NCBI RefSeq assembly: GCF_023256255.1
Contig: NZ_JAGDXD010000009.1
Location: 1 to 64,000, forward strand
Direction: 5' to 3'
Source of the DNA: Caldivirga sp.
Lineage (GTDB): Archaea > Thermoproteota > Thermoprotei > Thermoproteales > Thermocladiaceae
DNA: 64,000 nt
Translations under genes and position numbers: made by a program
In this document: one piece after another, positions 45,085 to 47,120 of the stretch
How the letters are laid out: each line of letters starts with the position of its first letter
How positions within the stretch are numbered: position 1 is the stretch's first letter
Notes under the pieces: model-generated
What the model was told of the DNA's origin: nothing
Seen by the model: the letters and a program-made list of their open reading frames with translations, nothing else
Database searches by the model: none

Positions 45085-45197
45085 TGCAGTAAACTACTTT
45101 TTATCGAATCTCCCTTATTTCATAGCGTTTAATCCTTAACGCTTATTAATAATGAATCAGGTTAAAGGGCTGAATCCTTTTTCATGTTAATGGAAAT

Positions 45198-45207
45198 GTT
45201 TTTATAT
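45198..45207 (+). promoter_or_regulatory. TATA box of the structured RNA gene
   Basis: GTTTTTATAT lies about 20-25 bases before the 5' strand of the closing helix of the RNA (45223-45229), the place expected for transcription of an RNA gene on the plus strand. Confidence 0.55.
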
Positions 45208-45222
45208 TCCATTGCAGGGATC

Positions 45223-45448
45223 TAGGGTGTATCGACTCGATGGAAGCGATGCTCCGAAGGTTGGTACAAGTGCAGAGATGGGAGGCTCATGCCGTTGGTC
45301 TCAACCGGGCCTCATGACCCACACGTGATCAGAATGAGCATGTGGCCGAGGGCCAAGTCCCTACACTTGACCGTGAATAACGGAATAAAGGTGCAGGGAC
45401 AAACGGAACATGACTGAGGCTACTGTAAAATACCTTGGTTTCACCCTA
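45223..45448 (+). ncRNA. Structured non-coding RNA, unidentified (type T RNase P RNA is one candidate)
   Basis: The ~226-base segment lies between genes, is visibly G/C-richer than its surroundings, lacks a long frame and is closed by a perfect 7-bp end helix (TAGGGTG at 45223-45229 with CACCCTA at 45442-45448). Internal helices are GTCCCTACAC/GTGCAGGGAC (45357-45366 and 45391-45400, one mismatch) around CCGT/ACGG, CCACACG/CATGTGG (45319-45325, 45339-45345) enclosing a kink-turn-like GTGATCAGAATGAG, and GGTT/AACC with GAGAT/GTCTC (45259-45306). L7Ae binds kink-turns and is part of archaeal RNase P; Thermoproteaceae have a short type T RNase P RNA. I cannot find the usual GGAAAGTC box, so the identity stays open. 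It is not SRP RNA: helix 8 is missing. Confidence 0.65.
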
Positions 45449-46525: not shown

Positions 46526-46676
46526 CGGCTCTGAGTCATTTGGTTGTCTGTATCATTTTCACCCCACTATTCATTGTTTTTGATTGCTTCTAAGTCCTTT
46601 TAGTGCTAAGTTGATACTGCATTAACAAAACTTATGAGCTTTGCGATTGATGCTTAATTGGAAGGTCACTATGAAG

Positions 46677-46892
46677 TTTGCGAGTAGGCCTTGAGGAAGG
46701 CACCCAATGAAAACCCATACCCCTAAAGGGAGCTAGTGCCATAGAGTTCGGCCTTCATTGTGGCTAATAGTCACTTTTCGTGACTATTAGTCGCTCGGCC
46801 TCATTACTCCTTCTTCCTCCCCGTGCCGTCTACGGGACTAACTCCCCTCGAGGACGCGGGGGTTTCATTGGGTGCCCTCCTCCACCTCGCAA
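46677..46892. repeat. Nested long palindrome, probable transposon-derived (MITE-like) element
   Basis: Nested inverted repeats fill ~216 bases: TTTGCGAG (46677-46684) with CTCGCAA (46886-46892); GGCACCCAATGAAAACCC (46699-46716) with the near-complement at 46858-46876; AGGGAG...TAGT (46727-46737) with ACTA...CTCCCCT (46837-46848); and a perfect 11-bp central hairpin (46764-46774 and 46780-46790, loop TTTTC). A tnpB-tail relic on the minus strand overlaps its right arm. It may be a non-autonomous element of the IS200/IS605 type or a folded RNA. Confidence 0.65.
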
Positions 46893-46921
46893 CTGCTCAC
46901 AGGCTTCACAGTGGCACCCTC
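46865..46921 (-). pseudogene. Relic of a tnpB 3' end
   Basis: The minus strand reads EGATVKPVSSCEVEEGTQ followed by TGA. This acidic-ending tail resembles the last residues of archaeal IS605-family OrfB/TnpB proteins, which run into the right-end repeats. A TAA lies in frame just upstream, so only ~18 codons remain. On the plus strand at ~46964-47053 the reading NYLIALRGLEAIKNNEQS resembles the end of another transposase group. Both calls rest on recall of short motifs. Confidence 0.35.
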
Positions 46922-47120
46922 CAATTAAAATTTGTAAGTAAAGTTTATAAGCTTTGTAATTACTTAATAGCATTAAGAGGACTAGAAGCAATTAAAAACA
47001 ACGAACAGTCACGCAAACGCGTTGCAGACGGGGTGGGGAAGGGAAACTATTAGTTACGGTGAAGACTGGTTCTTAGGCGTAATTAATTATTTATAGATCA
47101 AGGGGATTCAGTGGTTCAAC

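Follow-up and report, generated by a model that had tools for sequence, protein, structure and literature searches.

The gap upstream of an HDAC-like gene in Caldivirga sp. carries a 240-bp, gene-less insertion. It occupies positions 45,167–45,406 on the forward strand of the window, the whole 64,000-nt stretch that was analyzed. The orthologous gap in same-genus genomes has no insertion, as comparison with related genomes, the check proposed in the preliminary description, revealed. In this uninserted-site alignment the gap has diverged, so the borders it gives are not base-precise. The insertion has a left end (LE) and a right end (RE) common to full IS607 elements and other MITEs, and its right half corresponds to the tnpB 3′ end, comprising an omegaRNA scaffold together with the RE. 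We are confident that it is a non-autonomous IS607-family MITE whose right half is a TnpB omegaRNA scaffold.

The LE (45,167–45,208) matched the LEs of the autonomous copies L042, L044, L039, and L032 at 86–93%. It contains a TATA-like box, TTTTTATATT, at 45,199–45,208, confirming the TATA box described previously. In the window copy and some other copies, the LE, starting with GGGCTGAATCCTTTTTCATGTTAAT, directly abuts the 3′ end of tnpB; in still other copies, the core forms the 3′-terminal part of a tnpB gene with an open frame. A GG dinucleotide is present at both ends of the MITE (GGG...CGG). GG is the overlap (crossover) dinucleotide of IS607 (PMC4058570).

The preliminary description had placed a structured RNA gene at 45,223–45,448. 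These boundaries had to be revised, as they start 56 nt inside the unit and end 42 nt into host DNA. The 7-bp closing helix described with them (45,223–45,229 with 45,442–45,448) pairs element DNA with host flank 36–42 nt past the RE. Such a pair was not seen in other element copies, and a rough estimate gives about 0.2 matching 7-mers between two 60-nt flanks from chance alone. The helix was rejected because its 3′ arm is host flank and the site is uninserted in same-genus relatives; it is a chance pairing. The segment was also said to have no coding frame. In fact, codons at 45,289–45,366 (forward strand) are a remnant of the TnpB C-terminus, with 23 of 26 residues identical to the TnpB encoded on contig C4 of the same genome (E = 3e-16).

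The predicted guide, which in omegaRNAs comes after the RE, lies in the host flank at 45,407–45,426 (forward strand). The sole genomic match for this sequence was itself, and a guide aimed at another site in the genome was rejected for lack of a second match.

RNA structure and covariation

The segment 45,223–45,448 folded at −81.1 kcal/mol (z = −3.1 against dinucleotide shuffles). The z-score of the element RNA (45,230–45,406) was −2.4 against the same kind of control. At its 5′ side, a hairpin at 45,230–45,266 with the stem UAUCGACU/GGUUGGUA comes from the TnpB zinc-finger-coding region, and the hairpin fold was found here and in autonomous copies. The omegaRNA core and RE (45,275–45,406) matched covariance model R1 with 136.7 bits and contain compensatory changes. 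All of these features are on the forward strand.

Helix 1 (45,282–45,286 with 45,298–45,302) encloses a loop that holds the pseudoknot strand CCGUU (45,292–45,296). Helix 3 (45,308–45,312 with 45,350–45,354) is followed by helix 4 (45,319–45,327 with 45,337–45,345), and the RE forms a hairpin, helix 5 (45,357–45,367 with 45,390–45,400). Compensatory changes support each of these helices. Between helices 3 and 4 lies a k-turn-like loop (CAUGA at 45,313–45,317 and CCGA at 45,346–45,349) that recurs in most copies. This AUGA/NGA internal loop has GA on both strands in 35 of the 57 aligned copies. Thus, both the kink-turn-like loop and the minimum of three internal helices read from the single sequence were borne out, the helices by compensatory changes across copies.

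In 11 copies, the proposed structure paired 93.7% of cells, compared with 28–45% when it was slid, and 10 pairs were doubly changed. RNAalifold found the same nested helices independently. The covariance model gave 65 matches in 20 of the 45 genomes of the order. Among 55 distinct aligned copies, changes on both sides occurred at 31 of 35 pairs, supporting five helices with the pseudoknot included; the alignment (A3) had been fitted to the model, and the counts for modelled helices, though not for the pseudoknot, are inflated as a result. The compensatory changes that had been proposed as a check are therefore present in relatives.

The last five bases of the element, AACGG (45,402–45,406), pair with CCGUU in the loop of helix 1. 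This pseudoknot was not part of the search model, and it covaried all the same: the combinations were CCGUU/AACGG (29 copies), GCGUU/AACGC (5 copies), GUGUU/AACAC (1 copy), and CCAUU/AAUGG (1 copy). The RNA lies at the tnpB 3′ end and terminates at the RE, and its conserved pseudoknotted fold directly precedes the predicted guide. A fold with a pseudoknot before the guide start is what one would expect in a TnpB omegaRNA, in which the guide comes directly after the RE.

A second IS607-like group (L093, L101, L105, L108, L113, L116, and L118) ends in AACGC instead of AACGG. The TnpB tail in this group reads PMALAS rather than PMPLAS, a protein change that corresponds to the base change in the pseudoknot.

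Related elements and proposed origin

A DNA search of 61 genomes (its own and relatives) located the core (45,275–45,408) in other genera and, at identities of 86, 79, and 76%, in three further places of the same genome. Three full copies, L039, L042, and L044, are 1.92–1.94 kb long and encode a serine transposase (TnpA) and TnpB. The TnpA of L042 was assigned to IS607 by NCBIfam NF033518 (199.4 bits, cutoff 110) and also matched PF00239. The TnpBs of the full copies matched TIGR01766 (77 bits, cutoff 32), and the tnpB of L042 is frameshifted. An intact TnpB reading frame of 411 aa, its RuvC residues judged by eye alone, is present in the same genome on contig C4. No close TnpA was found in the 97% complete assembly, where the best match was a 48% relative; this counts against the IS607-MITE reading. 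A PDB sequence search with TnpB gave no match. Two loci, L037 and L038 (G003), encode a distantly related TnpB group with the same omegaRNA core at the end; no IS607 TnpA was detected with them.

We propose that an internal deletion fused the promoter-bearing LE to the omegaRNA scaffold, which overlaps the tnpB 3′ end and forms the RE. Judging by its position, the LE TATA box would drive tnpA in autonomous copies, and in the MITE transcription may start from it. The pseudoknot closes on the last five bases, which would place the first base of a guide at 45,407 in the host flank. The resulting RNA could load onto the intact TnpB of contig C4. The IS607 TnpA would mobilize such elements in trans, recombining at GG dinucleotides.

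TnpBs of the kind that belongs to the window element were found in Metallosphaera yellowstonensis, Sulfolobales archaeon Acd1, and Thermocladium modestius. M. yellowstonensis MK1 (L156–L215) had 111 model matches in all. The 65 matches examined included 42 clear MITEs in 41 distinct places, mostly of 261 bp, and 11 TnpB-type copies; this genome therefore has at least 41 omegaRNA-only MITEs, a lower bound. These MITEs have their leader and a remodelled 5′ hairpin in common with Thermoproteales MITEs such as L033, L040, L041, and L043. The window copy, by comparison, has a different junction and an unremodelled 5′ hairpin, and for this reason it seems to have arisen by a deletion of its own that led to the same layout. 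L034 and L092 seem to be additional cases of this kind. The repeated survival of the hairpin and core fits selection for a compact omegaRNA; alternatively, the core may be retained for transposase binding at the RE. As an ascertainment check for MITEs without an omegaRNA, 13 LE matches were inspected: 9 end in the scaffold and 4 are solo left-end fragments. Two solo LEs, L142 (G007) and L144 (G010), are near-identical, and about 70 bp in they carry an apparent coding sequence of another element on the opposite strand.

The window also contains, at 46,654–46,928 on the minus strand, an imperfect inverted-repeat (hairpin) element present in roughly 15 places of the genome. An Rfam Sso133 match (59.3 bits, 46,817–46,878) lies inside it, and one copy is 100% identical over 187 bp. 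This element represents another MITE family, one that was probably active recently.

Active guide RNA or passenger

The identity, boundaries, and conserved structure of the MITE are established. Stated cautiously, it is an IS607 MITE that has inherited an omegaRNA scaffold, and the activity of its RNA is putative. Conservation of pairing was compared between copy types. TnpB-bearing copies kept pairing at 26 of 31 changed pairs, against 30% expected by simulation. MITE copies kept it at 18 of 36, against 46% expected (P = 0.31), and the window copy at 3 of 5. Base-pair constraint was thus strong in TnpB-bearing copies and not detectable in MITE copies, the window copy included. An apparent signal of selection on the RNA in 28 Metallosphaera copies (33 of 48 kept, P < 0.001) was rejected, as shared changes had been counted repeatedly. 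With each change counted once, pairing in the Metallosphaera MITEs was kept at 10 of 20, which was not significant (P = 0.09).

Since constraint was not detectable in MITE copies, the window copy may be a passenger and not an active trans-acting guide RNA. We somewhat favor the reading that it is now a passenger or is slowly decaying.

The competing reading, which we hold to be possible yet rather doubtful, is that the MITE is an active omegaRNA gene, with a compact omegaRNA transcribed from the LE promoter and loaded onto TnpB from a full copy elsewhere. In the same reading, and with the same reserve, the RNA-loaded TnpB would cut the element-free allele of its own site, and TnpB would keep and spread the MITE in trans. 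Consistent with this, the window copy has kept the TATA box in its LE, the 5′ hairpin, the pseudoknot, and 32 of 35 pairs, and the same genome encodes the intact 411-aa TnpB. Apparently separate deletions (the window copy, L034, L092, and the common MITE lineage) all kept the 5′ hairpin and core, and M. yellowstonensis has dozens of such MITEs. The lack of detectable constraint on pairs in MITE copies speaks against an active gene, and core retention may reflect what the transposase needs at the RE.

An extension to archaeal IS607 MITEs of hyperthermophiles and thermoacidophiles at large is more speculative still. They might be mobile guide-RNA genes, i.e., promoter-driven compact omegaRNAs without a nuclease, but we regard this as unlikely. 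An equally tentative part of this reading is that dozens of them per genome would program a few TnpBs in trans, with a different guide at each insertion site.

Other identities and relation to known systems

A simple tnpB 3′ remnant left by decay, instead of a transposed MITE, would account for the presence of only the last tnpB codons. It is very improbable, as an LE is joined on, both ends are intact, and the same layout occurs in elements of other genomes. Slightly less credible again is a new class of cellular RNA with a stand-alone gene. The segment is structured, intergenic, and has a promoter-like box, but it also has transposon ends and TnpB homology, is multicopy, and is absent at this site in sister species. 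From the structured RNA gene described initially, the structure with its k-turn-like loop is retained, with compensatory changes in relatives; its status as an RNA gene of its own and a new class is not. What takes its place is the omegaRNA end of an IS607-family element, here within a MITE. The archaeal omegaRNA family of the window MITE, though absent from Rfam, is a known kind of RNA. The type T RNase P RNA suggested earlier, or another known cellular RNA, has almost nothing in its favor: the resemblance was in length and k-turn only, the RF02357 match (87.9 bits, cutoff 60) sits on another contig (C57) of the same genome, for which reason the segment is not this RNA, and the Rfam search recommended for it gave no family at the segment, even with permissive filters.

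Among known systems, IS607 and ISC1904, which combine a TnpA serine transposase with TnpB, resemble the elements described here in the TnpA family of the full copies, the GG ends, and a tnpB upstream of the RE. Unlike them, the window copy has lost both genes and measures 240 bp instead of about 1.9 kb. Like TnpB omegaRNAs and the IS607 reRNA with RAGATH-18 (PMC11061315), the window RNA lies across or next to the tnpB 3′ end and the RE. Further features shared with the RAGATH-18 reRNA are pseudoknot(s) and a possible kink-turn, the latter reported for the RAGATH-18 portion of guide RNAs from bacterial IS607 elements (PMC11061315). However, the window RNA belongs to a different, archaeal sequence family, lacks a tnpB, and has no Rfam match; the RAGATH-18 model itself did not match the window element. 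Archaeal sotRNAs/IS200/IS605 omegaRNAs (RF02656 and RF02657, as named in PMC12558985) are likewise sense RNAs from the archaeal tnpB 3′ end, but they belong to another IS family, and no Rfam match to the window element was obtained. In a search of part of the open-access literature for IS607 MITEs and trans-acting omegaRNAs, no description of IS607 MITEs keeping an omegaRNA was found, an absence that does not prove novelty. In prokaryotes, MITEs of IS200/IS605-type elements have kept their ends and lost their genes. The window element has done the same.

What looked like an orphan RNA becomes a system open to testing, in which nuclease-less mini-transposons carry an archaeal IS607 omegaRNA family that Rfam lacks and whose pseudoknot covaries. 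The independent-looking deletions that kept the 5′ hairpin and core hint at a natural compact scaffold with about 65 nt dropped. Should TnpB accept MITE RNAs in trans, a single TnpB could be supplied with guides from many places in the genome, which would put the system midway between a selfish element and a guide array.
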